A DNA stretch of 64,000 nt from Nocardioides sp. SYSU D00038 (GCF_016924665.1 NZ_JAFFJT010000019.1:62001-126000), one strand, 5' to 3'; counted from the first letter of the stretch, positions 11,859-64,000 are shown. Numbers and translations: made by a program. The notes: a model not told the origin generated them from the letters alone.

Positions 11859-12719
11859 TCAGGACCAGTAGACGACGACCCGGTCGCCCACCTCCACCTG
11901 GTCGAAGAGCCACTCCACCCCGCTGCGGTCGCGCACGTTGACGCAGCCGTGCGACGCGCCGCCGTACCCGGTGGCCGCGAAGTCGGCGGAGTAGTGGACC
12001 GCCTGACCACCGGAGAAGAACAGCGCGAACGGCATCGGGGTGTCGTAGAGCCTCGACACGTGGTCGCGGCTCTTGAGGTAGACCTCGAACACGCCCTCGC
12101 GGGTGGGGGTGTAGTCGGAGCCGAACCGCACGTCGACGGTCTTGCGCACCTCGCCGTCGACCACCCAGCGCAGGGTGCGGCTGCTCTTGTCGACGCACAG
12201 CGCGCGCCCGGTGCGGCAGCGCGGATCGAGCCGGCCGGGCTGGTTGACGTTGCCGTTGTGCAGCTGCTCCTGGGTGGGCGTCGTGCTCATCGAGCGGAGC
12301 CGCTTCAGGGTGCGCTGGTCGACCTCGCCGGTGACGGGGAAGCCCCGCTTGTCCTGGAACCCCTCGACCGCCTCGACGGTGTGGTCGCCGTAGACGCCGT
12401 CGACGTCCTCGGAGTACCACGCGAGCTGCTTGAGCCGGGCCTGCAGGTCGCGCACCGCCGGCCCCTCGTCGCCGGGTCCGAGCACGGTCGGCCCGGGTTG
12501 GCTCGCCGGGTCGGGCCGGGGCCCGCGGGGCGGGTCCGGCTCCGGGGCCGCCACGGTCGGGACGTCGTCCGGGGTGTCGGCGACCGGCACCACCACCCGC
12601 TCGGGGTCCGGCGCGTCGGCGCGCGCCTGCTGGCGCTGGGCGTAGCCGACGGCGAAGGCGGTGGTGGCGAGCAGGGCCAGCGTGAGCAGGCCCAGCGCCG
12701 CACGGCGCAAGGAGGTCAT
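11859..12719 (-). CDS. Secreted L,D-transpeptidase with peptidoglycan-binding domain (first copy)
   Basis: A 286-residue exported cell-wall enzyme. A signal segment (RRAALGLLTLALLATTAFAVG) is followed by a Pro/Asp-rich linker, a PG_binding_1 repeat (DEGPAVRDLQARLKQ...GFPVTGEVDQRTL, about residues 90-145) and a YkuD domain with HYSADF and SHGCVNVRD; the nucleophile is C259. Such enzymes form 3-3 peptidoglycan cross-links or attach proteins. The ATG has a good AGGAG site six bases upstream; the long open frame extending further upstream runs through repeats and is spurious. A paralogue lies 1 kb away in the same direction. Confidence 0.9.
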   Translation of the reverse strand: MTSLRRAALGLLTLALLATTAFAVGYAQRQQARADAPDPERVVVPVADTPDDVPTVAAPEPDPPRGPRPDPASQPGPTVLGPGDEGPAVRDLQARLKQLAWYSEDVDGVYGDHTVEAVEGFQDKRGFPVTGEVDQRTLKRLRSMSTTPTQEQLHNGNVNQPGRLDPRCRTGRALCVDKSSRTLRWVVDGEVRKTVDVRFGSDYTPTREGVFEVYLKSRDHVSRLYDTPMPFALFFSGGQAVHYSADFAATGYGGASHGCVNVRDRSGVEWLFDQVEVGDRVVVYWS

Positions 12720-43253: not shown

Positions 43254-44473
43254 ATGGGAAGGCCGCACACCACTCGCTACCGGCACCGCGTCACGCGCGC
43301 CGTCGGGGAGGCGCGTGGCGTGCTCGACGACGTCCACGACCTGCCGCTGTGGAGCATGCAGGCACCCGAAGCAGCCGAGACCCTGATCGAGCTCGCCAAG
43401 CTCAAGAGCCAGGTCGCAGCACTCGAGCTGCGCGTCGCGAGGCACGCCCAGACCCAGAAGGTCGAGGCCGCCTCCGGCGCCACGTCGACCGCGGCCTGGC
43501 TGGCGGTCGCGACCCACGCCACCCGCCGCGAGACCGCCCGGACGATGCGGCTGGCAGAACAGCTCGACACCATGCCTACCGTCGCCCAAGCCCTCGCGCG
43601 TGGTGAGCTGCTGCTGGAGCAGGCCGAGGTCATCGCCCGCGCGATCACCAAGCTCCCCGACGACATCGACCCGCAAATCCGCGACCAGGCCCAGGCCAAG
43701 CTGATCGAGCTAGCCCAGCACCACGACGCCAAGGACCTGATCGTCTTCGGCAACCGGATCCTCGACATCGTCTGCCCGGAGGTCGGTGAGGCCGCCGAGG
43801 CCAAGGCCCTCGAACGCGAGGAGCGCGCGGCCGAAGCCAAGTGCAGGCTCACGATGCTCGACGACGGCGAAGGCAGGACCCACGGTCGGTTCGTCATCCC
43901 GACCCTGCACGCCGAGGCGCTCAAGAAGGCGCTCTTCGCCCACGCGGCCCTGACCCACGAGAAGGTGACCTCGCAGTCGCTGGGCCAGGCGTTCTGCGAC
44001 TACATCCTCAAGTACCCAGCAGACGTGCTGCCTCAGCGCGGCGGCGTCAACGCCACCGTCGTCGTCACCATCCCCTGGCGGTGCTGGAAGGCCGGCTCGC
44101 GGCGTGCGAGCTCGACACCGGCACCCGGATCAGCCCCGGCGCCGCCCGCCGCCTCGCCTGCGAGGCCGGCCTCATCCCGGCCGTGCTGGACGGGCAGTCC
44201 CAGGTCCTCGACCTCGGCCGCAGCCGCCGCCTCTTCACCACCCCGCAACGCATCGCGATGGGCCTCACCCAGAAGACCTGCCGCTCCGAGGGCTGCGACC
44301 GCCCCGCCAGCACTTGCGAGGCCCACCACAAGACCCGCTGGACCGACGGCGGCAACACCGACCTCCAGGACGGTGTCCTGCTGTGCCCCAGCCACCACCA
44401 GAGAGCACACGACCCGGCGTACGAGACGACCCACCTGCCCACCGGGAAGGTCCAGTTCCACAGAAGAACGTGA
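43254..44473 (+). pseudogene. DUF222/HNH endonuclease family protein, frameshifted
   Basis: A DUF222 domain fills the first ~260 residues (start MGRPHTTRYRHRVTRAVG). At the C-run 44072-44075 one C is missing relative to the intact copy at the left edge of the window: the frame passes from VVVTIP into an Arg/Ser/Pro-rich nonsense tail, while the proper continuation LAVLEGRLAACELDTGTR with the HNH core runs in the next frame to 44473. The HNH part is otherwise well conserved (8 differences in 144 residues), so the lesion is recent, a sequencing error in a homopolymer, or a slippage site. Repeats flank the gene on both sides. Confidence 0.85.
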
Positions 44474-44658
44474 GTCGCCCAACGATGTGACCCTTTCGGA
44501 CCGCAACCGCGACGGTCGACCCCAGCGGACCCGACGGCCGCCGACGACGCGCGACGACCCACCGCAACCACCCACGACGAGCAACCACATTGATCGTCTC
44601 GCGACTGCAACCCGGCGCATGTCCGTCAGACGAAGACGTCGGAGGGTTCCCGTCTCAC

Positions 44659-44731
44659 CGGGTTTCGAGATAGGACTTCGTCCTTCCTCAACCACCGGCG
44701 CGGGGCAGCGTTCGTCGCTCCTCAACCACCA
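44659..44731 (-). repeat. Inverted-repeat arm plus partial arm
   Basis: Minus-strand arm GGTTGAGGAAGGAC-GAA-GTCC with a shortened right half (TATCTCGAAACCCGG), followed by a partial arm CTGGTGGTTGAGG whose TGA is the stop codon of the SRPBCC gene. The 248 bases between the HNH pseudogene and that gene hold nothing else. Confidence 0.65.
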
Positions 44732-45204
44732 GTGGCGGCGAGGGCCTCGGCGCGCGCCTTCAGCCCCTCCGCGTGGCGGCGGAAGCCGTCGGCGACGCGG
44801 GCGGGGCCGGCGAGGGGGACGAGGGGGCCGGTGAACTCCTCGACGGTGTCGTAGCGGGTGGGGCCGCCGGGGGACTGCGTCAGCACCTGGTGGCGTACGC
44901 CGCGCACCAGGCGCAGTCGCGCGGGCAGGCCCTCGTAGGCGTAGGACAGTCGAGCGGTGGTGACGCCGTCGACGACGGCCGGCGGCTCGAGGGCGCTGAT
45001 CCGCTCGGGCGAACGAGCGCCCCGGCCGTTGGCCCACCGCACGTGCAGCACGATCGGGTTGCCGACGGCCGGGGGAGCGGGGGTCTCGACGCGGACGACG
45101 AACGGGTTCCACTCGGCGTACGACGCGGTGTCGAGCATGACGTCCCACACCCGCTCGAGCGGGGCGTCGATGTCAATGGCCGCGCGCGGCCGGGCGGTGC
45201 TCAC
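44722..45204 (-). CDS. SRPBCC-fold protein
   Basis: A 160-residue START/Bet v1-like protein with the typical opening AAIDIDAPLERVWDVMLDTASYAEWNPF and a C-terminal amphipathic helix after about residue 130. Such proteins bind hydrophobic ligands or act in polyketide or stress metabolism; the ligand is unknown. GTG overlaps the upstream SRPBCC gene by four bases. The last codons and stop (ACT GGT GGT TGA) lie in a repeat arm. Confidence 0.75.
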   Translation of the reverse strand: MSTARPRAAIDIDAPLERVWDVMLDTASYAEWNPFVVRVETPAPPAVGNPIVLHVRWANGRGARSPERISALEPPAVVDGVTTARLSYAYEGLPARLRLVRGVRHQVLTQSPGGPTRYDTVEEFTGPLVPLAGPARVADGFRRHAEGLKARAEALAATGG

Positions 45205-46292: not shown

Positions 46293-46375
46293 GGCAGGTT
46301 GCCCGAGCGGCCAATGGGAGCGGACTGTAAATCCGTCGGCTTACGCCTACGCAGGTTCGAATCCTGCACCTGCCA
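46293..46375 (+). tRNA. tRNA-Tyr (anticodon GTA)
   Basis: An 83-base class II tRNA. The acceptor stem pairs GGCAGGT with ACCTGCC, the anticodon stem GCGGA/TCCGT carries loop CTGTAAA with anticodon GTA at 46327-46329, a long variable arm follows, and the T loop is GGTTCGAATCC. CCA is not encoded. A possible -10 TATTGT lies at 46241. Confidence 0.96.
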
Positions 46376-46380
46376 CGTCA

Positions 46381-46410
46381 GCGCCCCCGGTCCACCAGGT
46401 CCGGGGGCGC
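46381..46410 (+). terminator. Terminator hairpin of tRNA-Tyr
   Basis: GCGCCCCCGG and CCGGGGGCGC are perfect complements around the ten-base loop TCCACCAGGT, six bases after the tRNA. Confidence 0.75.
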
Positions 46411-46615
46411 TCTGCGTCCCGGGGGTCGAGGGCCCGGCCATGGTGACCGAGAACGTCACGTGGCGGCCGGCTTGGTGACGTCCCCGTGCCCGGCGCGACA
46501 CAACCGCGCAACGTGCGCTCCATACGTTTCCGGTGCTCGACACACATGTCTCGCTCTCGGCTCGTGCCAGTGCAGCCGCGGGCCGCGGACGACCGGACTC
46601 CTCAGGAGCCTCATC

Positions 46616-49600
46616 GTGCGCCTCTCCGCCCGACGGCGGGTAGGGCTCGGCCTCTCGGCCGCCCTGCTCGCCACCCCGCTGACCGCCCTGCTGCCGGCAC
46701 CCGCCGTCGCGGCCGACCCGGACGGCGTCGTCGCCGCCGGTGACGACTGGGCCGTGACCAGGGCCCCCGGTGGCTACCTGGTCACCGTCGACCTCGACCA
46801 GCCGCTGCCCATCCGCTCCGACGCGCCCACCGTGGTGGTCGACGGCGAGACCGTGGGGTTGGCCACCCAGTCTGCCGACGGCCTCTCGCTCACCACCTTC
46901 ACCACCGACCCGTCGGTGGGCGACGCGTCGTCGGCCTCCGCCGGCTGGGCCAGCCAGCCGCCGGGCGGCTCCGGCACGCCGTCGCGCGCGGTGGCGGTGC
47001 CGGACGTCACCGCGGCGGCGCCCGCCCTCGACGTCGACCCGGCCGCGCCGGGCACCTTCGACTGGACCGAGTCGATCTACAAGTTCGGCGACCAGGCGAT
47101 CCCGCTGGCCGCCATCGGCGGAGTGCGCGGCGAGCTCGAGGGCAAGATCTACCTGCCCACCACGGGCGGTGCCCGGCCCACCGTGCTGCTCCTGCACGGT
47201 CGCCACACCTCCTGCTACACCGCCGTCAACGGCACGCCCGCCAACCCGGCCCGCTGGCCCTGCACGACCTCGCCCGACAACACCGGCCGCCTGTCGATCC
47301 CGAGCTACGCCGGCTACGACGGCACCGCCCGGGCGCTCGCCAGCCGCGGCTACGCGGTGGTCTCGATCTCGGCCAACGCGGTCAACTCCAACGACAACGA
47401 GCTGGCCGCCGACCAGGGCGCGCAGGCGCGTGGGCAGCTGCTGCTCGACACGCTCACCATGCTCGACAGGGCGAGCAAGGGTGAGCCGGTCAGCTACCAC
47501 GACGCGTTCACCGACCGCGACGTCTCGCTCGCCCAGGCGCTGACCGACGGCGCCGCGTCGTACGCCGTGCGGTCCGCCGGGTTCGTGGGCGGGGCCCCGG
47601 AGCTCGACACCGTCACGCCGGCCGACCTGGTCGGCCGCTTCGACCTGACCACGATCGGCATGATGGGTCACTCCCGTGGCGGCGAGGGCGTCACCTCGGC
47701 GGCGACCCTCAACCAGGCGCTAGCCGAGCCGTGGAACATCGAGTCGATCCTGCCCCTGGCGCCGGTCGACTTCGGCCGGATGACCGTGCCGAACGTGCCG
47801 ATGAACGTGATCCTGCCCTACTGCGACGGCGACGTCTCGAACCAGCAGGGCCAGCACATGCTCGACGACTCGCGCTACGCCTTCGGTGACGACGCGCTGC
47901 GCTCCGGCACCTGGGTGATGGGGGCCAACCACAACTTCTACAACACCGTCTGGACGCCGGGTAAGTACTCCTTCAGCGTCAGCGACGACTGGAGCGGTAC
48001 CAACCCGACGTCGGCCCGGGCGACCGAGCCGATCTGCGGCACCGCACCGTCGACGGCCGAGACCTCGATCCGGATGACGCCGGACGAGCAGTACGCGCAG
48101 GGCACGTCGTACATGACGGCGTGGTTCCGGCTGACCCTCGGTGGCGAGGAGCAGTTCCTCCCGATGTTCGACGGCACCGGCTCGGTCCCGGCGGCACTGG
48201 GCGGCGAGGACGTGCGCACCACCGCCACCGCCCCCTCGAGCGCGCGGGCGACCATCACGTCGTTCGAGCGGTCCTCGTCGCTGGTGCGCACCTTCGGCAC
48301 CGCAACCGCCAACCCGTGCGCGAGCATGAACGCCCGTACGACGCCGCAGGACCTGGCGCCGTGCACCACGACGCTGGCCAGCGCCCAGGTGCCGCACTGG
48401 ACCCCCGCGTCCAACGGCGGCAACGTGCCGGCCACCCCGGTCACCCGAATGACGTGGACCAGCGCGACCGGCGAGGTCCGGGTCTCCGTGCCGGCCGGCA
48501 AGCGCGACGCGAGCGACTTCGAGCGGCTGTCGGTCAAGGTCGCCGCCGACGAGACGGTCGCCACCGGCACCGACCTCACGCTCACCGTGGTCGACGGCGA
48601 GGGCGAGACCTGGAGCTCGCCGGTCTCGGCGCTCAACCCGGTGGCGCTGGTGCGGATGCCGACCTCGGAGAGCAGCGCGGCGACCACCACGCTGAAGAAG
48701 ATCGTGCTCCAGCAGGTGAACGTGCCGATCGCCACCCTGGCCGCCGACGGTCTCGACACCGGCGACCTGCGCGAGGTCCGCTTCACCGCGGCGGTCGGGG
48801 CCGACGCGGTCGCGAGCGGCGCGGCGTACCTCTCCGACCTGGCGTTCGAGAGCTCGTCGATCGGCGTCGCGGCCAACCGCACCGAGCCGGTCGTGAACGT
48901 CTACGCCCCCGGCGTCGACGAGGGCCGAGCCCCCGGCACCGTCGACCTCGCGGTCTGGCTCGACCAGCCCGCGACCTCGCCGGTGACCGGGTGGGTCTCG
49001 CTGCTCGGCTCCACCTCGAGCCGCGCCGGCGCCACCATGGAGAAGGTCACGTTCGCACCCGGCGAGACCTGCAAGGTCGTCACCGCGGCGGTGCAGGGCG
49101 ACCTGGCCGACAGCACGAGCAACGTCACCAACGTCAAGGCGAGCGTCATCAGCGTCTCGGGTGCGGTGCAGGGCAAGGAGGCCATCGTCTTCATGCGGAT
49201 CCGCGAGGACGACGGCCTGCTGCCCAGCGGCAACCCGCCGTCGACGCCGACCCCGCTGCCGGCGTTCGGCACGCCGGGGCCGGTCTGCGAGGAGCTGGCC
49301 GGCGTGCGCGCCGGAGGTGCGGTCAGCGTGCCCGCGACCACCGCACCCGGCGCCACGGCGCCGGTGTCGGCCGCCGGCTTCCGTGCCGGCGAGGCCGTCA
49401 CCTTCGCCGGGACCGGCCTGGCTCCGGTGACCGCGGTCGCCGACGCCGCCGGCACGGCCACGGCGGCGCTGGACGTCCCGGCCGACGCGGCCCGGGGCGC
49501 CCTGCCCGTCACCGCCACGGCCGCGGCCACCGGCCGGGTCGCGCGCGGCGACCTCGGGGTGCGTGACGTCAGCACCACGACCCTGGCGATCGCGCCGGAG

Positions 49601-50422
49601 GCGCCGGCGCTGCGCGAACCGGTGACGCTGACCGCCACCGTCGCGGGTGGCGACACCGGCGGCACGGTCACCTTCCTCGACGGCACGACCGTGCTCGGCA
49701 CGGCGCCGACCGCCGGGGGCGTGGCCACGCTGACCGTGCCGGCGGGCTTCGGGGCGGGTGCCCACTCGCTCACGGCCGCCTTCGACCAGACGGCGGTCAC
49801 GACCGGGTCGGAGTCGGCACCGGTCGCCTTCGCGCTGGCCAAGGCCACGCCGACGGCCGTGGTCACGCTGAGCACCGCCAAGGTCGTCTTCGGCTCGCCG
49901 GCGGCCACCGCCGACGTCGTGGTCGGCGGGGCGGTGGGCGGCGGTGACGTCCGCCTGACCGTCGGGTCGACGACCGTGACCCTCCCGCTCGACGAGGCGG
50001 GCCGGTCGTCGTACGCCCTGCCGGCGCTGGCGGCGGGTACGTACTCCGTCGGTGTTCGCTACCTCGGCTCAGCGGACTCCGAGGAGTCGGCACCGGTCGC
50101 GGTGCCCTACACCGTCAGCCCGAAGCCGACCACCACCGCGGTGAGGGCGCCGTCGGTCCGGGCCGGCAAGAAGGTGACGGTCACCGTCACCGTCGCGGGC
50201 GCCGTGCCCGGGGTCCCGGCCACCGGGACGGTGCGGATCAAGGTGACCGGTGCGGTCACCCTCACCCGCACGGTCACGCTGCCCGCCTCCGGCAAGGTCG
50301 TGCTGAAGGTGCGCACCAAGGCGAAGGCCAAGGGCAAGCGGCTCAAGGTCCGCGCGACCTACACCGCCACCGGCAGCTACGTCTCCAGCACCTCGCCGCT
50401 GCGGACGGTGAAGCTGAAGTAG
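46616..50422 (+). CDS. Large secreted alpha/beta-hydrolase with C-terminal Ig-like repeats
   Basis: A 1268-residue exported protein. The GTG has an AGGAG site seven bases upstream and opens a signal peptide ([20 protein letters not shown]...PAVAAD). An alpha/beta-hydrolase domain spans about residues 150-480: [14 protein letters not shown] forms the oxyanion region and MGHSRGGEG the nucleophile elbow, with S353. A beta-rich middle follows, then at least three Ig-like Big_3-type repeats from about residue 1000 ([15 protein letters not shown], then a similar copy) and a Lys-rich end. Probably an extracellular esterase or lipase; substrate unknown. No sortase motif. The longer upstream frame is rejected. 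Confidence 0.85.
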
Positions 50423-54517: not shown

Positions 54518-54697
54518 TCAGGCGGTCCAGCGCACCGCCTCCTCGACGAGGTCGGCCATCGGCACGATGCCGGCCAGGTCGTCGCGGCGCTGGTAGAGCC
54601 CGGCGACGCCCGAGGCGTGCCGGGCCGCCACCTGCTCGCGGCGCACCCGGAGGGCGTCGTCGGCCTGCTGGTCGTTCGTGGTGGACGTACGGGACAT
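54518..54697 (-). CDS. 59-residue hypothetical protein divergent from the sulfur operon
   Basis: Reads MSRTSTTNDQQADDALRVRR, then a charged helical middle (EQVAARHASGVAGLYQRRDD) and LAGIVPMADLVEEAVRWTA. AGGAGG lies five bases before the ATG. Predicted to be one long helix plus a second short one; no DNA-binding motif is obvious. It shares a 65-base divergent promoter region, with a palindrome, with the leader peptide of the sulfur operon. Function unknown. Confidence 0.6.
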   Translation of the reverse strand: MSRTSTTNDQQADDALRVRREQVAARHASGVAGLYQRRDDLAGIVPMADLVEEAVRWTA

Positions 54698-54722
54698 GGG
54701 GGCCTCCTCGTGTGCTAATGTC

Positions 54723-54735
54723 TACTGAGTCAGTA
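54723..54735. promoter_or_regulatory. Palindrome in the divergent promoter of the sulfur operon
   Basis: TACTGA-G-TCAGTA, in a patch much richer in A and T than the surroundings (CTAATG to GATATA). It probably overlaps the promoters in both directions. Confidence 0.5.
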
Positions 54736-54762
54736 TAGTTCAGCGATATAAGGGGGTTAGCG

Positions 54763-54870
54763 ATGACCGGAGCCGGGTGGGACCCGCAGCCCGGGCCCGT
54801 TGCCGTGCTGCTGCACGGTCGGCGGCACGTCGACCTCCTCCTCACGGCCAGCGCGCTCTGTCGCGGCTGA
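54763..54870 (+). CDS. Putative Cys-type leader peptide of the sulfur operon
   Basis: A 35-codon ORF with a strong AGGGGG site seven bases before the ATG. The second half is LLHGRRHVDLLLTASALCRG. The RRHVDLxxxxSALCR pattern recurs in short actinobacterial leader peptides in front of sulfur-assimilation genes. A single Cys codon, TGT, rare at this GC content, lies three codons before the stop; a hairpin follows immediately. The design suggests attenuation: slow decoding when cysteinyl-tRNA is short alters the downstream fold. Known from related leaders: translation-dependent control. Inferred here: the exact mechanism. Confidence 0.7.
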   Translation: MTGAGWDPQPGPVAVLLHGRRHVDLLLTASALCRG

Positions 54871-54871
54871 A

Positions 54872-54895
54872 GGTTGCGCCCCCCGCCGGCGCACC
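54872..54895 (+). promoter_or_regulatory. Hairpin directly after the leader peptide
   Basis: GGTTGCGCC pairs with GGCGCACC apart from one bulged T. It begins one base after the leader stop and 67 bases before the rhodanese start, where an attenuator or an RBS-sequestering stem would be expected. Confidence 0.4.
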
Positions 54896-54961
54896 GCCAC
54901 CGGCCAGCCCCGACCCCGGACAGCCGCGACCCGTCCGACCCACCCACACCCGAGGACCCTC

Positions 54962-56515
54962 ATGACCACACCCATCGACGCCGCCGAGCTCCGGCGGCTG
55001 ATCGACGAGCCGGACCGCGAGCTCGCGATCCTCGACCTGCGCCCGCCGCTGGTCCGCACCCAGGGACACCCCGCCCTCAGTGGCGGCATCCCGCTCCACG
55101 ACCTCGAGCAGCGGGTCACCACCCTGGTACCCCGCCGCGGGACCACCGTGGTGCTCGCCTCCGAGCCCGACCTCGACGCCCGCGGCGCGGAGGTGCTCGC
55201 CCGGCTGGGCTACACCGACGTCCGCGTGCTGCGCGACGGGCTGGCCGGGTGGTCCGCCGCGGGCGAGCGCCTCTACACGGGCACCAACGTGCGCAGCAAG
55301 ACGCTCGGCGAGTGGATCGAGGCCGAGCTCGGCACCCGCACCGTCGACAGCGAGACCGTCGCCCGCTGGCGCGAGGCGGGCGAGGACGTGGTGGTGCTCG
55401 ACAGCCGCCCGCACGAGGAGTACGTCCACCACCACATCCCCGGCGGCCTCGACACCGGTGGCGGCGCCGAGCTCGCCTTCCGCGGCCTCGCGGCCGTCAC
55501 CGGGCCGGCCACCAGGATCGTGGTCAACTGCGCCGGCCGCACCCGCGGCATCGTGGGCGCCCAGTCGCTGGTCAACACCGGCATCGTCAACCCGGTCTAC
55601 TCGCTCCACAACGGCACGCCCGCCTGGGGCTGGGCCGGGCTGCGGGTCGAGGACGGCCCCGGCACCCCGCTCCCGGCCCCCGTCGAGGTCCCCGACGACC
55701 TTCGGAAGTGGGCCCAGCAGACCCTCGACAGCGCCGGTGCGACGGTGCTCGACGCGGTGGCGTACGACGCGCTGGTCGCCGACGCCCGGCGCACGACGTA
55801 CGTCATCGACGTGCGGCGGCCCGAGGAGCACGCGGCCGGCTCGGTGCCGGGTGCCCGCTCCGTGCAGGGCGGCCAGCTCGTGCAGGGCACCGACGAGCAC
55901 CTGCCGGTGCTCGGCGCCCGGGTCGTCCTCGTCGACACCGAGGACCTGCTCCGCAGCGCCAGCACCGTGCAGTGGCTGCGCTACCTCCACGACGGACCGG
56001 TGCACGTCATCACCCACGACGCGCCGGTGACCCGCCGGCCCGAGACCACCCCCGCTGCGCGCCCCGAGGTGCCGACCGTCTCCGCCGCCGAGCTCGGCGC
56101 CGCCCTCGCCTCCGGTCGGGAGCTGACGGTGGTCGACCTCCGCCCCTCGCGCGAGTACGCCGCCGGTCACCTCCCGGGGGCGGTGCACGCGCGCCGCGAG
56201 CACCTGGCCGGGCTGGTCGGGCGCGGGCGGCTCGTGCTGGTGGGGAGCGCGTCCTACGCCCCGCACTTCGCCGCCGCCGACCTGCTCGCCGCGGAGGCGG
56301 ACGTCGCGGTGCTGACCGACGACCTCGCCGACGTCGGCGTCCCGCTGACCACGGCCGACCCGCAGCACGCCGGCGAGGTGGTCGACGAGGTCGGCCCACC
56401 CGAGTTCGGGCCCGAGCGCGACCGCTGGTACCGCGAGTACTTCGAGTGGGAGTACTCGCTGGTGCCGGCGTCGACCGGCGACCCCGACTTCGCGTTCGAG
56501 GAGAAGCGGCCGTGA
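54962..56515 (+). CDS. Four-domain rhodanese-like sulfurtransferase
   Basis: A 517-residue protein with four rhodanese folds in a row, starting at about residues 1, 120, 270 and 385. Only the second has the active cysteine, C190 in NCAGRTRG (Cx-G-R-x-R loop). The equivalent loops of the others read ASEPDLDARG, VDTEDLLRS and VGSASYAPH, without Cys, so these are probably structural or binding domains. It should move sulfane sulfur to or from a thiol. First gene of the sulfur operon after the leader peptide; overlaps the permease gene by four bases. Confidence 0.88.
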   Translation: MTTPIDAAELRRLIDEPDRELAILDLRPPLVRTQGHPALSGGIPLHDLEQRVTTLVPRRGTTVVLASEPDLDARGAEVLARLGYTDVRVLRDGLAGWSAAGERLYTGTNVRSKTLGEWIEAELGTRTVDSETVARWREAGEDVVVLDSRPHEEYVHHHIPGGLDTGGGAELAFRGLAAVTGPATRIVVNCAGRTRGIVGAQSLVNTGIVNPVYSLHNGTPAWGWAGLRVEDGPGTPLPAPVEVPDDLRKWAQQTLDSAGATVLDAVAYDALVADARRTTYVIDVRRPEEHAAGSVPGARSVQGGQLVQGTDEHLPVLGARVVLVDTEDLLRSASTVQWLRYLHDGPVHVITHDAPVTRRPETTPAARPEVPTVSAAELGAALASGRELTVVDLRPSREYAAGHLPGAVHARREHLAGLVGRGRLVLVGSASYAPHFAAADLLAAEADVAVLTDDLADVGVPLTTADPQHAGEVVDEVGPPEFGPERDRWYREYFEWEYSLVPASTGDPDFAFEEKRP

Positions 56516-57387
56516 CCGCGCTCGAGACGCTGGGCGCCCCGGCCGGCGTGCCGGTGGCGGCGCCCACCACGACCCACACCTACGAGCGCGCCGGGGTGCC
56601 GGGGTCGGGCACGACCCGGGTCCGGCGGGTCCCCCAGCTGCTGCTCCGCGTGCTGGCCCCGCTGGCGCTGATCGGGCTCTGGCAGCTCAGCGACACCCTC
56701 GACTGGGTGAGCCCCCAGGTGCTGCCGGGCCCGATGGCCATCCTCGACGCCTACCGCGAGCTGTGGGCGGTGGGCGACCTCCAGGCGGCGCTGCCGATCT
56801 CGCTGCAGCGCGCGGGCACCGGCCTCCTCGTCGGCGGCACCGCCGGGCTCGTGCTCGGGGTGGTGGCCGGGCTGTCGGTCACGGCCGAGCGGTTCTACGA
56901 CGCGCCGCTGCAGATGCTGCGCACCATCCCGTTCATCGCGCTGGTGCCGTTGTTCGTCGTCTGGTTCGGGATCGGCGAGACCTCCAAGGTGGCGCTGATC
57001 ATCGGCGCCTCGATCTTCCCGGTCTACCTGAACACCTACCACGGCATCCGCGGCATCGACCGCAAGCTGCTCGAGGTCGGCCGCACCTTCGACATGTCCC
57101 GCTGGGAGACCATCCGGCTCGTCGTCGTACCGCTCGCCATGCCGGGGATCCTGGTCGGCTGGCGCTACGCCGCGGGAGCCGCGCTGCTCGGCCTGGTCGC
57201 CGCGGAGCAGATCAACTCCCAGGCCGGCATCGGCTACATCCTCAACACCGCCAACCAGTTCCAGCGCACCGACATCATCCTCGCGGGCATCCTCGTCTAC
57301 GCCGCCCTCGGACTCGTGGTCGACGTGGTGATGCGCACGCTGGAGCACGTCCTGCTCCCCTGGAGGGCCACCCATGACGGCCGCTGA
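56512..57387 (+). CDS. SsuC-like ABC transporter permease
   Basis: A 291-residue inner-membrane permease of the nitrate/sulfonate/taurine class. After ~45 hydrophilic residues come six helices; the EAA loop is LEVGRTFDMSRWETIRLVVVPLA, and GLWQLSDTLDWVSPQVLPGP is the usual N-terminal block. GTG overlaps the rhodanese stop by four bases, and the 3' end overlaps the ATPase by 14. With the next two genes it forms one importer, likely for an organosulfur compound. Confidence 0.88.
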   Translation: MTALETLGAPAGVPVAAPTTTHTYERAGVPGSGTTRVRRVPQLLLRVLAPLALIGLWQLSDTLDWVSPQVLPGPMAILDAYRELWAVGDLQAALPISLQRAGTGLLVGGTAGLVLGVVAGLSVTAERFYDAPLQMLRTIPFIALVPLFVVWFGIGETSKVALIIGASIFPVYLNTYHGIRGIDRKLLEVGRTFDMSRWETIRLVVVPLAMPGILVGWRYAAGAALLGLVAAEQINSQAGIGYILNTANQFQRTDIILAGILVYAALGLVVDVVMRTLEHVLLPWRATHDGR

Positions 57388-58219
57388 CACCACCCCAGCC
57401 ACCACCCCCACGACCACCCCCACGACCGGGCCGGCCGAGGAGGTCCTCAGCCACGAGGCCGTGCTCACCGGCGAGCCCGTGGTGCGGCTCGAGGGTCTGT
57501 CGAAGAGCTACGGCGAGCAGGTGATCCTCGACGGGATCGACCTCACCGTGGGCCGCGGCGAGTTCGTCGCCCTGCTGGGGCCCTCGGGCACCGGCAAGAC
57601 CACGCTGCTGCGCATCCTGGGCCGGCTCGAGGACGCCTCGTCGGGCCGGGCCACCATCGCGGAGAAGACCTCGGTGGTGTTCCAGGAGCCGCGGCTGATC
57701 CAGGCCCAGCGGGTCTGGCGCAACGTGGTGCTGGCCGCGGGCCGCGGCGCGGGCGCCAGGCAGGCGGCGCACGCCGCGCTGGCCGAGGTGGGCCTGGCCG
57801 ACAAGGCGCAGGCCTGGCCCAAGACCCTGTCGGGCGGCGAGGCCCAGCGCGTCGGGCTGGCCCGTGCGCTGTTCCGCGAGCCCGACCTGCTGCTGCTCGA
57901 CGAGCCGTTCGGGGCGCTCGACGCGTTCACCCGCCGCAAGGCCCAGGACCTGGTGCTCGCCCTGTGGCAGGAGCACCAGCCGGGCGTGCTGCTGGTCACC
58001 CACGACGTCGAGGAGTCCCTGCTCCTCGCCGACCGCGTGATCGTCCTCGGGGGCGGGCACATCCAGGCGGACATCCGGGTCACCACACCCCGTCCGCGCG
58101 ACACCACCTCGCCGGAGTTCAACGCCACCAAGCGCGAGGTCCTGGCCCACCTGAGCCAGGTCTCACCCCACGTGAGCCCGGACCACCCGGCTCACCGCGA
58201 CTACGGAAAGATCTCATGA
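57374..58219 (+). CDS. SsuB-like ABC transporter ATPase
   Basis: A 281-residue nucleotide-binding subunit. Walker A GPSGTGKT, signature LSGGEAQR, Walker [12 protein letters not shown] and switch VTHDVEESLL are intact. The first ~40 residues are Thr/Pro-rich, starting inside the permease gene; a later start is possible, but the ATG is well placed. It energises the SsuC-like permease. Confidence 0.9.
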   Translation: MTAADTTPATTPTTTPTTGPAEEVLSHEAVLTGEPVVRLEGLSKSYGEQVILDGIDLTVGRGEFVALLGPSGTGKTTLLRILGRLEDASSGRATIAEKTSVVFQEPRLIQAQRVWRNVVLAAGRGAGARQAAHAALAEVGLADKAQAWPKTLSGGEAQRVGLARALFREPDLLLLDEPFGALDAFTRRKAQDLVLALWQEHQPGVLLVTHDVEESLLLADRVIVLGGGHIQADIRVTTPRPRDTTSPEFNATKREVLAHLSQVSPHVSPDHPAHRDYGKIS

Positions 58220-59262
58220 GAAAGCTCATCGCCTCCCTGTTCGCCACCACCCTGCTGGCCGCCGGGCTCTCCGCCTGCGGCGGCGACGCCGACGCGGGCT
58301 CGGGCTCCGACGGTGCCACCAAGCTGACCATCAGCTACCAGGACACCGCGTTCCCCGCGTTGATCGAGGCCTCGGGGGTCCTCGACGGCGCCGATCTCGA
58401 CGTCGAGTGGGTCAACCTCACCGGCCCGGCCGCCAACCTCCAGGCGCTCTACTCCAAGGCCATCGACCTCGGCCACATGGGCGACACCTCGCTGACCATC
58501 GAGCAGGCGAACTCCAAGACCGACTGGACGGCCGACAATGCGCCGCTGGAGATCGTCGCCGGCTGGCGCAACGGCAACGACCCGGAGTTCTCCCCGCTGG
58601 TCACCGCGGTCCGCACCGACTCCGGCATCACCGAGGTCGCGGACGCCAAGGGCAAGAAGTGGGGCTTCAACTTCGGCGGCTACAACCACGCCCAGTACCT
58701 CGTCTCGCTGGTGCAGGGCGGCCTGACCGAGGACGACATCGAGCCCACGCAGTTCGCCGACGGCGCCACCTCGGCGGCGGCGTTCAACGCCGGCGAGGTC
58801 GACATCTACTCCGGCGGGCACGGCCCGATCCTCGGCGCCCTGGCCTCCGGTGACGCCGAGATCATCCTCGACGACAGCCAGACCGCGATCCCGGCGCTGA
58901 ACGTGTGGACGGCCCGCAAGGACGTCCTCGACGACGAGGAGAAGGACGCCGCGCTGGAGGAGTTCTTCGAGCGGATGTCGGGCTACTGGGCCTGGCACGA
59001 CGAGAATCCCGAGGAGGTCAAGAAGATCCTCGTCGAGCAGCTGAAGGTCGACGACGCCCGCGCGGACTTCGAGTACGAGGTGCGCCGGGGCGCCTTCCGG
59101 GCGTTCGACGACGGGCTCCTCGCCGAGGAGCAGGCGGTGGCCCAGGCCCTCTTCGACGGCAAGGCCATCCCGAAGCTGCCCGAGGTGGGCATCGGCTTCG
59201 ACCCGCGCTACAACGAGGTCCAGGGCGCGATCTCGAGCGCGGACGCACAGGCGGCGCAGTGA
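58216..59262 (+). CDS. SsuA-like substrate-binding lipoprotein
   Basis: A 348-residue extracytoplasmic binding protein. The lipobox AGLSAC (C21) ends the signal peptide. KLTISYQDTAFPALIEASGVLDG, LGHMGDTSLTIEQANSK and KGKKWGFNFGGYNHAQYLV match the sulfonate/nitrate-binding SsuA/TauA class. Its ligand probably is an alkyl or aryl sulfonate, sulfone or similar compound; this cannot be fixed by sequence. Overlaps the neighbours by four bases on both sides. Confidence 0.87.
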   Translation: MRKLIASLFATTLLAAGLSACGGDADAGSGSDGATKLTISYQDTAFPALIEASGVLDGADLDVEWVNLTGPAANLQALYSKAIDLGHMGDTSLTIEQANSKTDWTADNAPLEIVAGWRNGNDPEFSPLVTAVRTDSGITEVADAKGKKWGFNFGGYNHAQYLVSLVQGGLTEDDIEPTQFADGATSAAAFNAGEVDIYSGGHGPILGALASGDAEIILDDSQTAIPALNVWTARKDVLDDEEKDAALEEFFERMSGYWAWHDENPEEVKKILVEQLKVDDARADFEYEVRRGAFRAFDDGLLAEEQAVAQALFDGKAIPKLPEVGIGFDPRYNEVQGAISSADAQAAQ

Positions 59263-60482
59263 CGCTGGTCGCCGGGTCGCCCGCGGTCGCCGGGACCTTC
59301 CTCGACGAGCTCACGCAGGTCGTCGAGGAGGTCCGGGCGGGCGCGTCCGCCCGGGACCGCGAGCGCACCTACGCGGTCGCCGAGGTCGAGCGGCTGCGCG
59401 CGACCGGGTTCTGGGCGGCCACCGTGCCCGTCGAGCACGGCGGGCTCGGCCTCGACGCTGCGACCCTGGTGCAGGCGGTGCTGCTGCTGGCCGGCGCCGA
59501 CGGCAGCCTGGGCCAGGTCCCCCAGAACCACTTCATGACCGTGGAGCGGATCCGGCTCGCCGCCCGACCAGACCAGCGACGGCGCTGGCTGGCCCTGGTC
59601 GGGTCGGGCGCGGTGCTCGGCAACGCCACGGCCGAGCCGGGGGAGCGGCCACCGGGCGAGAGCGCGAGTGCGCTGCGCCGGGCCGGCGACGCCTGGGTGC
59701 TCGAGGCCCGCAAGGTCTACAGCACCGGCTCGCTGCTCGCCGACCACATCGCCGTGCAGGCCCGCGACGAGGAGGGCCGGCAGCGCACCGCGCTGGTGGC
59801 CCGCGACGCCCCGGGCGTCGAGGTCGTCGACGACTGGCAGAGCATCGGGCAGCGGACGACGGCGTCCGGCTCCTCGGTCTTCCGCGGGGTGCGGGTCGCC
59901 GACGTCGACGTGCTCGACCACGCGGTCGCGCCGGTGGCGACCTACCGGATCTCGGCCCTCGGCCAGCTGCTGCACGCCGCCATCGACGCCGGCATCGCGG
60001 TCGCGGCGGTCGACGAGACCGTCGCGCTCGCCCGGCGGGTGCACGCCGGCCGCGGCGCCGGGGTCAAGGAGTTCGGCGACGACCAGCTCGGCGTCGCTCT
60101 CGTGGGCGACCTGTCCGTGCAGGCGCTCGCCGCCCGTCGGCTCGTGGAGTCGGCCGCCGCGCGGCTCTCGCTGCTCCACGAGGCCTCGCCGCTCGAGGAG
60201 GTCGTCGACACCTGGTACGAGGTCGCGGCCGCCAAGCTGGTGAGCACCCGGGCCGCGCTGGCGGTGACCGCCGGTCTGTTCGAGGTGGGCGGCGCCAGCT
60301 CGACCCACCCCGACCACGGGCACGACCGCTACTGGCGCGACGCCCGCACCCACACCCTCCACGACGCCGTGCGCTGGAAGCCCCACGCGATCGGTCGCTG
60401 GCGGATCGCCCGCGACGTCGGTGACCCGTGGAGCATCGGCCACCCCTTCCGTCCCCTCGACGAGCTCAGGAGCACCCCGTGA
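59259..60482 (+). CDS. SfnB-type acyl-CoA-dehydrogenase-like monooxygenase
   Basis: A 407-residue flavoprotein of the acyl-CoA dehydrogenase fold. ADGSLGQVPQNHFMTVE is the SfnB/DszC-type signature in place of a true dehydrogenase motif, and GNATAEPGE, YSTGSLLADHIAV and WQSIGQRTTASGSS fit. The catalytic glutamate of fatty-acid enzymes is not evident. Known relatives (SfnB, DszC) use FMNH2 and oxygen on sulfur compounds; a reductase must supply the flavin, but none is in the window. Overlaps the LLM gene by four bases. Confidence 0.82.
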   Translation: MTLVAGSPAVAGTFLDELTQVVEEVRAGASARDRERTYAVAEVERLRATGFWAATVPVEHGGLGLDAATLVQAVLLLAGADGSLGQVPQNHFMTVERIRLAARPDQRRRWLALVGSGAVLGNATAEPGERPPGESASALRRAGDAWVLEARKVYSTGSLLADHIAVQARDEEGRQRTALVARDAPGVEVVDDWQSIGQRTTASGSSVFRGVRVADVDVLDHAVAPVATYRISALGQLLHAAIDAGIAVAAVDETVALARRVHAGRGAGVKEFGDDQLGVALVGDLSVQALAARRLVESAAARLSLLHEASPLEEVVDTWYEVAAAKLVSTRAALAVTAGLFEVGGASSTHPDHGHDRYWRDARTHTLHDAVRWKPHAIGRWRIARDVGDPWSIGHPFRPLDELRSTP

Positions 60483-61804
60483 CGACCGCTGCCCGCCCCC
60501 GTCGGCTGCACCTCAACGTCAACGTCAACAGCTCGGGCCGGCACCCCGCCTCGTGGCGGGTGCAGCCCGACCCGCTCGGCTTCCTGGACCTCGGCTACTT
60601 CGAGGAGATCGGGCGGCTGGCCGAGCGGGGCCGGCTCGACGCGGTGTTCTTCTCCGACGGCTTCGACCACTCCGAGACCCGGCCGTGGCAGGCGCTCGAC
60701 CCGTTCGTGCCGCTGACCGCGGTGGCGCGGGTGACCGAGCACGTCGGCCTGGTCGCCACCCAGTCGTCGAGCTTCCAGCACCCCTACAACATCGCCCGGT
60801 CCACGGCGTCGCTCGACCTCGTCTCCGGCGGTCGGGCGGCGTGGAACGTCGTCGCCACCCGGGCCCCCGAGGCGGCCCGGCTGTTCGGCCTCGACGACCT
60901 GCCCGACCACGACGAGCGCTACGCCCGCGCCGAGGAGGCGGTACGCGTCGTGCTGGCCCTGTGGGAGTCGTGGGAGCCGGGCGCCTTGGTCGCCGACCAG
61001 GCCAGCGGCACGTTCACCGACCCGGCGCGGATCCACCCGGTGGCCCACGACGGCACCCACTTCCGGGTGCACGGTCCGCTCAACGTGCCCCGCTCGCCGC
61101 AGGGGCGGCCGGTGCTGCTCCAGGCCGGCGGATCGCCGCAGGGCACCGCGCTCGCCGCGAGGTACGCCGACGCGGTGTTCTCGGTCAGCCACACGCTGCC
61201 GGCGGCCCAGGGGTTCTACCGCACCGTCAAGTCCGCCGCCGCGGGCCACGGCCGGTCGCCGGACCAGGTCGTCGTGCTGCCCGGGCTCTTCCCCGTGCTG
61301 GGCGGCACCGAGGCCGAGGCGCGCGAGCGCAAGGCCTGGCTCGACGGCGTAGCCGGCTTCGAGGGCGAGCTGGAGTCGCTCAGCGGCACCCTCGGCCTCG
61401 AGCCCGGCGACCTCCACCTCGACCGGCCCCTGCCGTGGGACCTGCTGGAGCGGGCCGGCGGCAGGGGCAGGAGCCTGGGGTTCGCGGCGGCGATCCTCGA
61501 CCTCGCCAGCCGCGAGGACCTCACCGTGCGCCAGCTGCTGGAGCGCAACCCCAACGGCCACCGCAGCCTGGTCGGCACGCCCGAGCAGGTCGCCGACGAC
61601 GTGGAGGCCTGGTTCACCGGCCGGGGCGCCGACGGCTTCAACCTCAACGTCGACGCGTTCCCCGACGGGCTCACCGCGATCGTCGACGGGCTGGTGCCGG
61701 AGCTGCAGCGGCGCGGGCTGTTCCGCACCGAGTACGAGGGCACCACGCTGCGCTCGCACCTCGGCCTCGAGGAGCCCGGCCACGAGCGGGCGGGGGTGGC
61801 CTGA
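60479..61804 (+). CDS. LLM-class flavin-dependent monooxygenase (NtaA/SnaA/DszA family)
   Basis: A 441-residue FMNH2-dependent monooxygenase. HLNVNVNSSGRHPASWR, EIGRLAERGRLDAVFFSDG, SSSFQHPYNIARSTASLDLVSGGRAAWNVV and VLLQAGGSPQGTALAARYADAVF are the diagnostic blocks of the NtaA/SnaA/DszA group, which open C-S or C-N bonds. It is not a close SsuD relative. With the SfnB-like gene ahead it forms a DszC/DszA-like pair. Start overlaps at GTGA; end overlaps the SDR. Confidence 0.87.
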   Translation: MTTAARPRRLHLNVNVNSSGRHPASWRVQPDPLGFLDLGYFEEIGRLAERGRLDAVFFSDGFDHSETRPWQALDPFVPLTAVARVTEHVGLVATQSSSFQHPYNIARSTASLDLVSGGRAAWNVVATRAPEAARLFGLDDLPDHDERYARAEEAVRVVLALWESWEPGALVADQASGTFTDPARIHPVAHDGTHFRVHGPLNVPRSPQGRPVLLQAGGSPQGTALAARYADAVFSVSHTLPAAQGFYRTVKSAAAGHGRSPDQVVVLPGLFPVLGGTEAEARERKAWLDGVAGFEGELESLSGTLGLEPGDLHLDRPLPWDLLERAGGRGRSLGFAAAILDLASREDLTVRQLLERNPNGHRSLVGTPEQVADDVEAWFTGRGADGFNLNVDAFPDGLTAIVDGLVPELQRRGLFRTEYEGTTLRSHLGLEEPGHERAGVA

Positions 61805-62601
61805 TGGACCTCGACCTGACCGGCCGCCGGGCGATCGTCACCGGCGCGACCGGCGGCATCGGGGTCGAGGTGGCCCGGGTGCTGGCCGAGGAGGGCGCCG
61901 ACCTGGTGCTCGCCGCCCGCACCCGCGAGCCGCTGGAGAAGCTGGCCGCCGAGGTCGCGGAGCACGGCGGCCGACGTGCCCACCCGGTGGTCGCCGACGT
62001 GCAGGACGACGGCTCGGTGCGCGCGCTGGTGGCCGAGGCGGTCGACGTCCTCGGCGGCGTCGACATCCTGGTCAACTCCGCCTCCAACCAGCAGGTCGGC
62101 AGGCACATGCCGGGCCTGCTCGACACGACCGACGAGGTGTTCTGGGAGGACGTCGACACCAAGCTGGTCGGCTACCTGCGCACCGCCCGCGCGGTCGCAC
62201 CCCACCTGGTCGCGCAGGGCTGGGGCCGGATCGTCAACATCGGCGGCCTCGGTGCCCGGGAGACGCGCTCGCTGGTGCGCTCCGTGCGCAACGTCGGCGT
62301 CGCTGCGCTGACCAAGAACCTCGCCGAGGAGCTCGGTCCCCACGGCGTCAACGTCACCGTCGTCCACCCCGGCCTGACCCGCACCCCCACGCTGTCGCGC
62401 GACCTGGCGACCCGGGCCGCGGCCGAGGGACGCACCGTCGCCGAGCTCGAGGACGAGCTCGGCGCCAACGCGCTCGGGCGCCTCGTCGACGCCGCCGAGG
62501 TGGCCGACGTGGTGGCCTTCCTGGCCTCTCCTCGCAGCGTCGCGGTCAACGGCGACGCGGTGTCGGTGGGAGGTGGGACCCGTGGCGTCATCCACTACTG
62601 A
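61804..62601 (+). CDS. SDR-fold protein lacking the catalytic Tyr and Lys
   Basis: A 265-residue short-chain dehydrogenase/reductase. Cofactor motif TGATGGIG at the N-terminus and VNSASNQQ in the middle are present. The usual YxxxK reads R159-SVR-N163 (in LVRSVRNVGVAALTK): both catalytic residues are replaced. It cannot use the normal SDR mechanism; it may bind NAD(P)H, act differently, or be a helper. It lies between the two monooxygenase pairs and overlaps the next gene by 20 bases. Confidence 0.82.
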   Translation: MDLDLTGRRAIVTGATGGIGVEVARVLAEEGADLVLAARTREPLEKLAAEVAEHGGRRAHPVVADVQDDGSVRALVAEAVDVLGGVDILVNSASNQQVGRHMPGLLDTTDEVFWEDVDTKLVGYLRTARAVAPHLVAQGWGRIVNIGGLGARETRSLVRSVRNVGVAALTKNLAEELGPHGVNVTVVHPGLTRTPTLSRDLATRAAAEGRTVAELEDELGANALGRLVDAAEVADVVAFLASPRSVAVNGDAVSVGGGTRGVIHY

Positions 62602-63826
62602 GGCCCCCGCCCGGTCCGTCCCCGCGGAGGGACCGGGCGCCGCCACGACCCCCGGGCGGCGGTTCGCCACTGCGCGTCGCCTGGGCCTCGCCGACCTCCT
62701 CCAGAGGGTCGCCGAGGGCGAGCCGGAGCGCGAGCGGACCGGACGGGCGCCGTACGACGAGGTACGGCTGCTCGCCCGGTCCGGCTGGGGCGCGCTCCGG
62801 CTCCCGCCCCGGCTCGGCGGGCGCGGTCTCTCGCTGGTCGAGCTGGTCGAGCTGACCGTCGAGCTGGCCGAGGCCGACTCCAACGTCGCCCACCTGCTGC
62901 GCAACCACCTCCTGTTCGTCGAGGGCGCGCTGGCCGACGAGGCGCACCACGGCCGCTGGCTGGCCGAGGTGGCCGACGGCTTGCTGTGGGGCCTGGGCTT
63001 CGGGGAGACCGCGATGCCGCGGGCCGGCGAGCGCGACTTCGCCACCACGCTGCTGCTCGACGAGGACGGCTGGGTGCTCGACGGCACCAAGCACTACTCC
63101 ACAGGCAACCTCTACGCCGACCGCATCCACGTGCTCGCCACCCAGGCCGACGGCCGGGTCGCCCACGCGATGGTGCCGACCGACCGCAGCGGGGTGGCGC
63201 GGCTCGACGACTGGGACGGCATCGGGCAGCGGTTCACCGGCTCGGGGACCACGCGGTTCCGGCGGGTCCGGCTCAACGCCGACGAGGTGGTCACCGCCGA
63301 CCAGCTCGAGCAGCGGCGCCCGCCGCGCGCGACGCCGTTCGCGCAGGTCTACCTCACCGCCGTGGTCGCCGGTATCACCGCCGCGGCCGCCGCCGAGGCC
63401 GTCGACCTGGTGCGCGGCCGGCGGCGCAACTACTTCCACGGCCTGCACGAGGTGCCACGCCACGACCCGCTGCTCCAGGCCACCGTGGGCCGGCTCTCCG
63501 CCGACGCGTTCGCCGCCCGGGCGACCGTGGTCGAGGCGGCCCGCAGCCTCGAGCGGGCCCTGGCCGCGGGCGGCGTCCCCGAGATGGAGGCCGCCTCGCT
63601 CGACGCGGCCCGCGCCAAGGTGGTCGTCGACGAGCTCGCCACCCGGACGACGTCCGGGCTGCTCGACGCCGGCAGCGCCTCCGCGGTGCGGGCCGACCTC
63701 GGCCTCGACCGCCACTGGCGCAACGCGCGCACCGTGATCGCGCACAACCCGGCGTCGTACAAGCTGCGCGTCGTCGGCGACCACGAGCTCAACGGCACGC
63801 CACCACCCGAGGGGTCGTTCTTCTGA
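62582..63826 (+). CDS. Second acyl-CoA-dehydrogenase-like monooxygenase
   Basis: A 414-residue paralogue of the SfnB-like protein. EADSNVAHLLRNHLLFVEGAL aligns with its PQNHF block; GTKHYSTGNLYADRIHVLAT and WDGIGQRFTGSGTTRFR match the flavin-binding region. The first ~30 residues are Ala/Pro-rich. GTG is preceded by GGGAGG at about eight bases; it starts inside the SDR gene. With the following LLM gene it makes a second monooxygenase pair. Confidence 0.8.
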   Translation: MASSTTEAPARSVPAEGPGAATTPGRRFATARRLGLADLLQRVAEGEPERERTGRAPYDEVRLLARSGWGALRLPPRLGGRGLSLVELVELTVELAEADSNVAHLLRNHLLFVEGALADEAHHGRWLAEVADGLLWGLGFGETAMPRAGERDFATTLLLDEDGWVLDGTKHYSTGNLYADRIHVLATQADGRVAHAMVPTDRSGVARLDDWDGIGQRFTGSGTTRFRRVRLNADEVVTADQLEQRRPPRATPFAQVYLTAVVAGITAAAAAEAVDLVRGRRRNYFHGLHEVPRHDPLLQATVGRLSADAFAARATVVEAARSLERALAAGGVPEMEAASLDAARAKVVVDELATRTTSGLLDAGSASAVRADLGLDRHWRNARTVIAHNPASYKLRVVGDHELNGTPPPEGSFF

Positions 63827-64000
63827 TGCCCACCGCCTCCACACCCGGCGGCCCCACCCGGGGGCACCTCCCGCTCGTGGTCAACATGCAGCCCTCCGGC
63901 GTCCACCAGGGCGCCTGGCAGGCGCCGGGCGCCGACCCGCGCGCGTTCGTCGACCTCGGCTACCACCGCGAGCTCGCGCGGCAGGCCGAGCGCGGCGTGC
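63826..64000 (+). CDS. LLM-class flavin-dependent monooxygenase, 5' part
   Basis: 58 residues are visible before the window ends. LVVNMQPSGVHQGAWQAPGA, then FVDLGYHRELARQAERGV, repeat the opening pattern of the NtaA/SnaA/DszA protein at 60479, so this is probably a paralogue. TGATG couples it to the preceding gene. The operon continues beyond the window. Confidence 0.75.
   Translation, partial: MPTASTPGGPTRGHLPLVVNMQPSGVHQGAWQAPGADPRAFVDLGYHRELARQAERGV

Follow-up and report, generated by a model that had tools for sequence, protein, structure and literature searches.

In the 4S pathway, encoded by dszABC, a DszC-DszA pair is combined with DszB, which converts sulfinate to sulfite. Other routes use MsuC, a DszC-like enzyme, for conversion of sulfinate to sulfonate, which is then cleaved by SsuD or MsuD (PMC13352529). 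A chain of two-component monooxygenases takes DMS all the way to sulfite without DszB; it uses a single reductase, which in the Acinetobacter DMS pathway powers every monooxygenase (PMC13352529). C-S cleavage to an aldehyde by an LLM enzyme has been described for CmoJ (PMC10863075), and in Gordonia, SfnB and NtaA-type genes respond to the sulfur source (PMC11852219; PMC7661421).

The window analyzed here is a stretch of 64,000 nucleotides (contig 38:62001-126000) from the genome of Nocardioides sp. SYSU D00038, a high-GC actinomycete (4.34 Mb in 44 contigs). Its last part carries an operon of related composition. The features are listed below in window numbering, which was continued past position 64000 on the extended locus L009; profile scores are given with the curated cut-off where one was missed.

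54763..54870, plus strand: leader-like ORF, 35 aa, RRHVDLL...ALCRG (NF042934, 25.3 bits, cut-off 27, E 8e-6)
54962..56515, plus strand: four-domain rhodanese, 517 aa, single Cys C190 (PF00581, 105 bits; 1YT8 alignment)
56512..57387, plus strand: ABC permease, SsuC-like (NF008470, 214.4 bits, equivalog cut-off 347)
57374..58219, plus strand: ABC ATPase, SsuB-like (NF008420, 224.4 bits, cut-off 395)
58216..59262, plus strand: substrate-binding lipoprotein, SsuA-like (TIGR01728, 86.3 bits, cut-off 163.5; PF09084)
59259..60482, plus strand: DszC1, SfnB-like group D flavin monooxygenase with acyl-CoA dehydrogenase fold (TIGR04022, 355.8 bits, equivalog cut-off 430.9)
60479..61804, plus strand: LLM1 (dszA1), FMN monooxygenase of the NtaA/DmoA family (TIGR03860, 474.8 bits)
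61804..62601, plus strand: SDR, TGATGGIG present, YxxxK replaced (PF13561/PF00106)
62573..63826, plus strand: DszC2, second SfnB-like flavin monooxygenase (TIGR04022, 275.3 bits, same cut-off as DszC1)
63826-65187 (L009:10826-12187), plus strand: LLM2 (dszA2), the window ending inside the gene (TIGR03860, 467.8 bits)
65184-66218 (L009:12184-13218), plus strand: aldo-keto reductase, AKR (PF00248)
66215-67582 (L009:13215-14582), plus strand: LLM3, DmoA-like (TIGR03860, 539.5 bits)

The eleven genes from the rhodanese to LLM3 (54962-67582) are co-directional, and because all ten junctions overlap, by 1-29 bp each, translational coupling across the operon is likely. The gene 3' of LLM3 is encoded on the opposite strand (convergent). 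A first-pass annotation had placed a sulfur-scavenging operon of overlapping genes at 54697-64000. The genes that it named were all recovered on the plus strand with the families assigned, and the overlaps were confirmed; the end at 64000 had to be moved, since the rest of LLM2, the AKR and LLM3 follow. The rhodanese is the first gene after the leader, as had been described, the leader ORF itself being a marginal call. Beyond the operon, a deazaflavin-dependent nitroreductase-family gene (TIGR00026) was observed on the minus strand at L009:16102-16569.

The operon probably serves the scavenging of organosulfur compounds by two-component flavin monooxygenases when sulfur is scarce. Sulfur scavenging through S-oxidation and oxygenolytic cleavage of C-S bonds, as suggested earlier for this locus, is well supported by the enzyme families, the operon structure, conservation, active-site residues and the precedents cited above. 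The Ssu-like importer would take up small organosulfur compounds, one or several, of the sulfonate, sulfinate, sulfone or thioether class. DszC1 and DszC2 would insert oxygen at sulfur, and LLM1-3 would cleave C-S bonds by a flavin peroxide, giving an aldehyde, presumably disposed of by the AKR, and a more oxidized or freed sulfur group. A sulfinate might be converted to a sulfonate by a DszC-like enzyme and further to sulfite by an SsuD-like enzyme encoded elsewhere, with FMNH2 supplied by the flavin reductases adjoining the SsuD-like gene. Sulfite would be reduced by the putative sulfite reductase of the genome, and the rhodanese may handle a sulfane-sulfur by-product or product. Several points weigh against this reading. 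The sequence points to no particular substrate, the importer genes and both DszC-like enzymes score under their equivalog cut-offs, and DmoA and LadA, the nearest relatives of LLM3, differ in substrate. The leader is marginal and unconserved, the rhodanese is left unexplained, since the known DMS route needs none, and the NIR_SIR match could be a nitrite reductase.

Catalytic residues of the monooxygenases were compared with those of DszC and DszA. The equivalent of DszC His391, a proton relay in flavin hydroperoxide formation (PMC11134501), was present in all 115 DszC-like sequences gathered, including DszC1 and DszC2. Of these 115, 110 also have a His near DszC position 92; the equivalent of His388 is kept in DszC1 and is Val in DszC2. 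SfnB was the top-scoring model for both proteins, which are classed as SfnB-like only, as the equivalog TIGR04022 was missed; the DszC equivalog NF043015 (cut-off 850) was missed widely (150.8 bits for DszC1, 138.0 for DszC2). All three LLM proteins pass TIGR03860 (cut-off 279.7). They carry the equivalent of Asn135 (WN motif in LLM1), and at the equivalent of Thr106 they have Thr, Ser and Thr, respectively, as read by eye from alignments; both positions have roles in the oxygen pocket of DszA-type enzymes (PMC11134501). The resemblance to DszC-DszA noted in the first-pass annotation is thus real at the level of fold and residues and does not extend to assignment as DszC or SfnB, and the LLM proteins belong to the broad NtaA/DmoA family.

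Neither a DszB-like gene within the operon nor a Flavin_Reduct or FMN_red domain on contig 38 was found, which agrees with the absences reported before. Genes for an SsuD-like monooxygenase (TIGR03565, 440.7 bits, cut-off 518.2), an SsuE-like FMN_red protein and a PF01613 flavin reductase lie in a row on contig C26 (302549-304742; L145:7549-9742), adjoined by a divergent LysR-type regulator. This locus is the probable partner of the operon. NIR_SIR proteins, which by domain alone may be sulfite or nitrite reductases, are encoded in the genome as well. With an SsuD-like enzyme and reductases encoded in trans, and with the DMS route as precedent, both absences are ordinary. A missing flavin reductase was thus rejected as an anomaly, a shared reductase being precedented, and absence of DszB is expected if the route ends in sulfonate cleavage. 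The NMT1-like binding protein was considered as a hidden DszB and rejected, as it is a lipoprotein whose only Cys is that of the lipobox (C21).

Among described systems, DMS/DMSO2 assimilation (Acinetobacter Dms1-3, MsuD/SfnG, MsuC, SsuD, MsuE; PMC13352529) shares with this locus group D S-oxygenases, LLM cleavage of C-S bonds to sulfite and the lack of DszB, the Acinetobacter reductase being common to many monooxygenases. It differs in that the genes studied here form a single operon with a dedicated importer, a rhodanese, an SDR and an AKR, that the LLM proteins are of the NtaA/DmoA rather than the SfnG/SsuD type, and that the reductase is on another contig. The SsuEADCB system has in common with the operon an ABC importer of the SsuABC type, with an SsuD-like enzyme, an FMN reductase and a flavin reductase encoded elsewhere in the genome; in contrast to it, the operon contains neither ssuD nor ssuE, and every importer gene scores under the curated Ssu cut-offs.

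A search for the same gene order, proposed earlier as a check, recovered the identical eleven-gene order in a second species (G897, L207), with about 70-85% identity and 68-75% in two segments for DszC2, which speaks against a chance arrangement. Another congener (G193, L122) has eight genes, comprising the rhodanese, the importer, DszC1, DszC2, LLM2 and LLM3, without LLM1, SDR and AKR. Two more (G988 and G1025; loci L208:15137-18024 and L209:2033-4920) encode the rhodanese beside an LLM2 ortholog (69% identity) with no other operon enzyme homolog adjoining, and the rhodanese-LLM2 pair is a minimal module. Owing to this patchy occurrence and the partial versions in congeners, the operon is classed, by sequence comparison, as an accessory, modular cassette. 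Rhodanese matches at E <= 1e-40 were obtained in at least 8 of 220 congeneric genomes, and at E <= 1e-50 in the own genome only among the candidates scored in 397 genomes of the phylum; both counts are lower bounds, because scoring was limited to the top few candidates in each genome, and tblastn tallies of operon proteins depend on thresholds chosen by us.

With DszC2 as query, 78 named loci were collected, a set that is uninformative on rhodaneses without DszC. A rhodanese of this kind was located within 10 kb in 26 of these loci. At 22 loci, the rhodanese, an Ssu-like permease/ATPase and an NtaA-type LLM were found beside the DszC2 relative, in Actinomycetota and Pseudomonadota including Caballeronia, Paraburkholderia, Methylobacterium, Ancylobacter, Frankia, Pseudonocardia and Mycolicibacterium. 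Seven of these genomes were searched and contained 1-6 such rhodaneses each, so that chance co-location would be expected well under once in 78 loci (rough estimate, unsimulated). Two Frankia loci have SDR, DszC2 and rhodanese in that order, and one (L031) encodes a TauD-family dioxygenase between the rhodanese and the binding protein (L031:12852-13763).

The rhodanese aligns over residues 18-503 with the four-domain chain of PDB entry 1YT8 (1.8e-71), which we take to be PA2603 of P. aeruginosa. PF00581 recognizes three stretches in it and four in a 72%-identical ortholog, consistent with four tandem domains. Its exactly one Cys, C190, is located in domain 2 within the conserved active loop NCAGRTR; 1YT8, in contrast, has a further Cys in the loop of the fourth domain. 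A search for literature on PA2603 retrieved no useful functional paper, most subscription journals lying outside the search. The single Cys in an active loop would suit a relay in which the monooxygenases release a sulfenate, a persulfide or another sulfane, and Cys190 captures the sulfur and passes it on without free sulfite. Linkage of the rhodanese to the module across phyla, its position next to LLM2 in two congeners where importer and DszC homologs were not found beside it, and the formation of sulfenic acid by CmoJ-type cleavage (PMC10863075) argue for such a relay. It is nevertheless rated as rather unlikely: a biochemical precedent was not found, the rhodanese might just make thiosulfate from sulfite, and a sulfite route is available through the SsuD-like and NIR_SIR proteins encoded in the genome.

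The SDR had been described as catalytically altered, and alignments bear this out. The cofactor motif TGATGGIG is intact (TGxxxGIG), and the catalytic Tyr and Lys of the classical Ser/YxxxK set are replaced by Arg and Asn. Among its relatives, the Tyr position varies between R, Q and G and the Lys is replaced by an invariant Asn; none of the 20 aligned SDR sequences departs from R162 and N163, and every relative examined has the RN motif. The structure model (pLDDT 86.9) gave SDRs as top PDB fold matches. AerF (PDB 6JH7/6JHA/6JHB), presumably an alkenal double-bond reductase, was the best match by fold (TM about 0.86) and by sequence (30% identity). AerF acts in aeruginosin biosynthesis in a cyanobacterium, and the similarity is too low for transfer of function. 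An extended, sulfite-independent route would have LLM2 release a sulfenate or a sulfane-type product by cleavage of an oxidized thioether, the rhodanese take up and deliver the sulfur, and the SDR reduce an unsaturated intermediate. We regard this sequence of steps as unlikely; if true, it would be a new way for organic sulfur to enter metabolism.

In another actinobacterial family, 62 of 301 genomes contained SDR relatives. These occur in ABC-LLM operons (L191, L193), beside a DszC-like gene (L192), or with neither neighbor. Constant pairing of the SDR with DszC was rejected, as an NtaA-type LLM or a DszC relative was present within 10 kb in about 5 of 9 SDR-led neighborhoods and in none of the others. 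A role of the SDR as flavin reductase substitute was unsupported: in the relative L189 a PF01613-like flavin reductase adjoins the SDR, and G193 keeps the core operon with neither SDR nor flavin reductase. In a widespread actinobacterial group of SDRs (L149-L178, L187-L195), the YxxxK region is replaced by an invariant Arg-Asn, and the cofactor site is intact.

Salvage of S-alkylcysteine as in the Bacillus Cmo system, by sulfoxidation and subsequent CmoJ-like cleavage, follows the same logic of S-oxidation and LLM cleavage to an aldehyde (PMC10863075), and YtnJ (CmoJ) and MoxC are, with NtaA and DszA, the nearest solved relatives of LLM1 and LLM2. The reading is very unlikely, as the importer is Ssu-like and not of the amino-acid type, an acetyltransferase or deacetylase is absent from the operon, S-oxidation would fall to DszC-type enzymes and not to CmoO, and LLM2 matches NtaA with a higher score than YtnJ.

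Desulfurization of aromatic thiophenes by a 4S-like DszC-DszA pathway with an unrecognized desulfinase would draw on the DszC-fold/DszA-family pair and its shared catalytic residues. Among solved structures, DszC/TdsC come closest to DszC1 and DszC2, DszA matches LLM1 with 272.6 bits, and dibenzothiophene induces sfnB in a Gordonia strain that lacks dsz (PMC11852219). Unlike the 4S set, the operon has two DszC-like and three LLM enzymes and no DszB-like gene, the lipobox Cys of the NMT1-like protein offering no substitute; its DszC-like enzymes reach 151 and 138 of the 850 bits of the DszC equivalog, and hydrophobic thiophenes should not require an Ssu-like importer. Thiophene desulfurization is hence highly improbable. 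A catabolic operon for nitrogen or carbon (NTA/EDTA-like or alkane-like oxidation) is also highly improbable, for although TIGR03860 takes in NtaA, EmoA and LadA relatives and the best solved match of LLM2 is annotated as nitrilotriacetate monooxygenase, the rhodanese, the SfnB-like enzymes, the Ssu-like importer, the possible Cys leader and the Frankia TauD all indicate sulfur.

Within the favored reading of organosulfur scavenging, LLM3 is nearest to DmoA (PDB 6AK1; 51% identity over 439 residues) and LadA. Unlike DmoA, LLM3 has no DmoB-like reductase adjoining it, and its function is a prediction.

The enzyme types of the operon are known. For the full gene set, the constantly linked four-domain rhodanese and the odd SDR, no described function was found in the literature searched, which left out most subscription journals and gave no account of the rhodanese-linked form. 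The locus had been ranked as the best candidate for an undescribed pathway; as a module it recurs, in 22 of the 78 loci, and what stands of that claim is the rhodanese-linked form. The operon would be the basis for defining a module of C-S monooxygenases with a linked rhodanese in Actinomycetota and Pseudomonadota. The rhodanese link, including its two-gene form, and the altered SDR deserve most attention. The rhodanese-LLM2 pair offers a compact case for asking why a sulfurtransferase travels with oxygenolytic desulfurization, and the SDR marks a conserved group without catalytic Tyr and Lys that is often encoded near such monooxygenases.

The leader-like ORF translates as MTGAGWDPQPGPVAVLLHGRRHVDLLLTASALCRG and falls just below the cut-off of the NCBIfam model 'putative leader peptide'. 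Its DNA motif occurs once in the genome. No terminator-like hairpin or unusual RNA fold was found 3' of the leader, a search ahead of the rhodanese in the congeneric operons yielded no leader, and an alignment of the upstream DNA gave no clear regulatory site in common. Cys-responsive attenuation by the leader is possible but weak as a proposal, because the score lies under the cut-off, no attenuator structure is visible and the relatives have no leader. In actinobacteria, cys operons are known to be preceded by leader peptides that lack obvious terminators (PMC1262725). Leader-like peptides (HHVDLLRV.SAAC) were observed in three Saccharopolyspora loci (L075, L077, L086) near position 12570 on the minus strand.

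In the remainder of the window, the Rfam scan returned nothing but a tRNA at 46293. Behind this tRNA gene lies a 1320-aa ORF containing Big_3_5 Ig-like repeats (46293-50422 in total), and a DUF222 ORF is located at 43254-44834.
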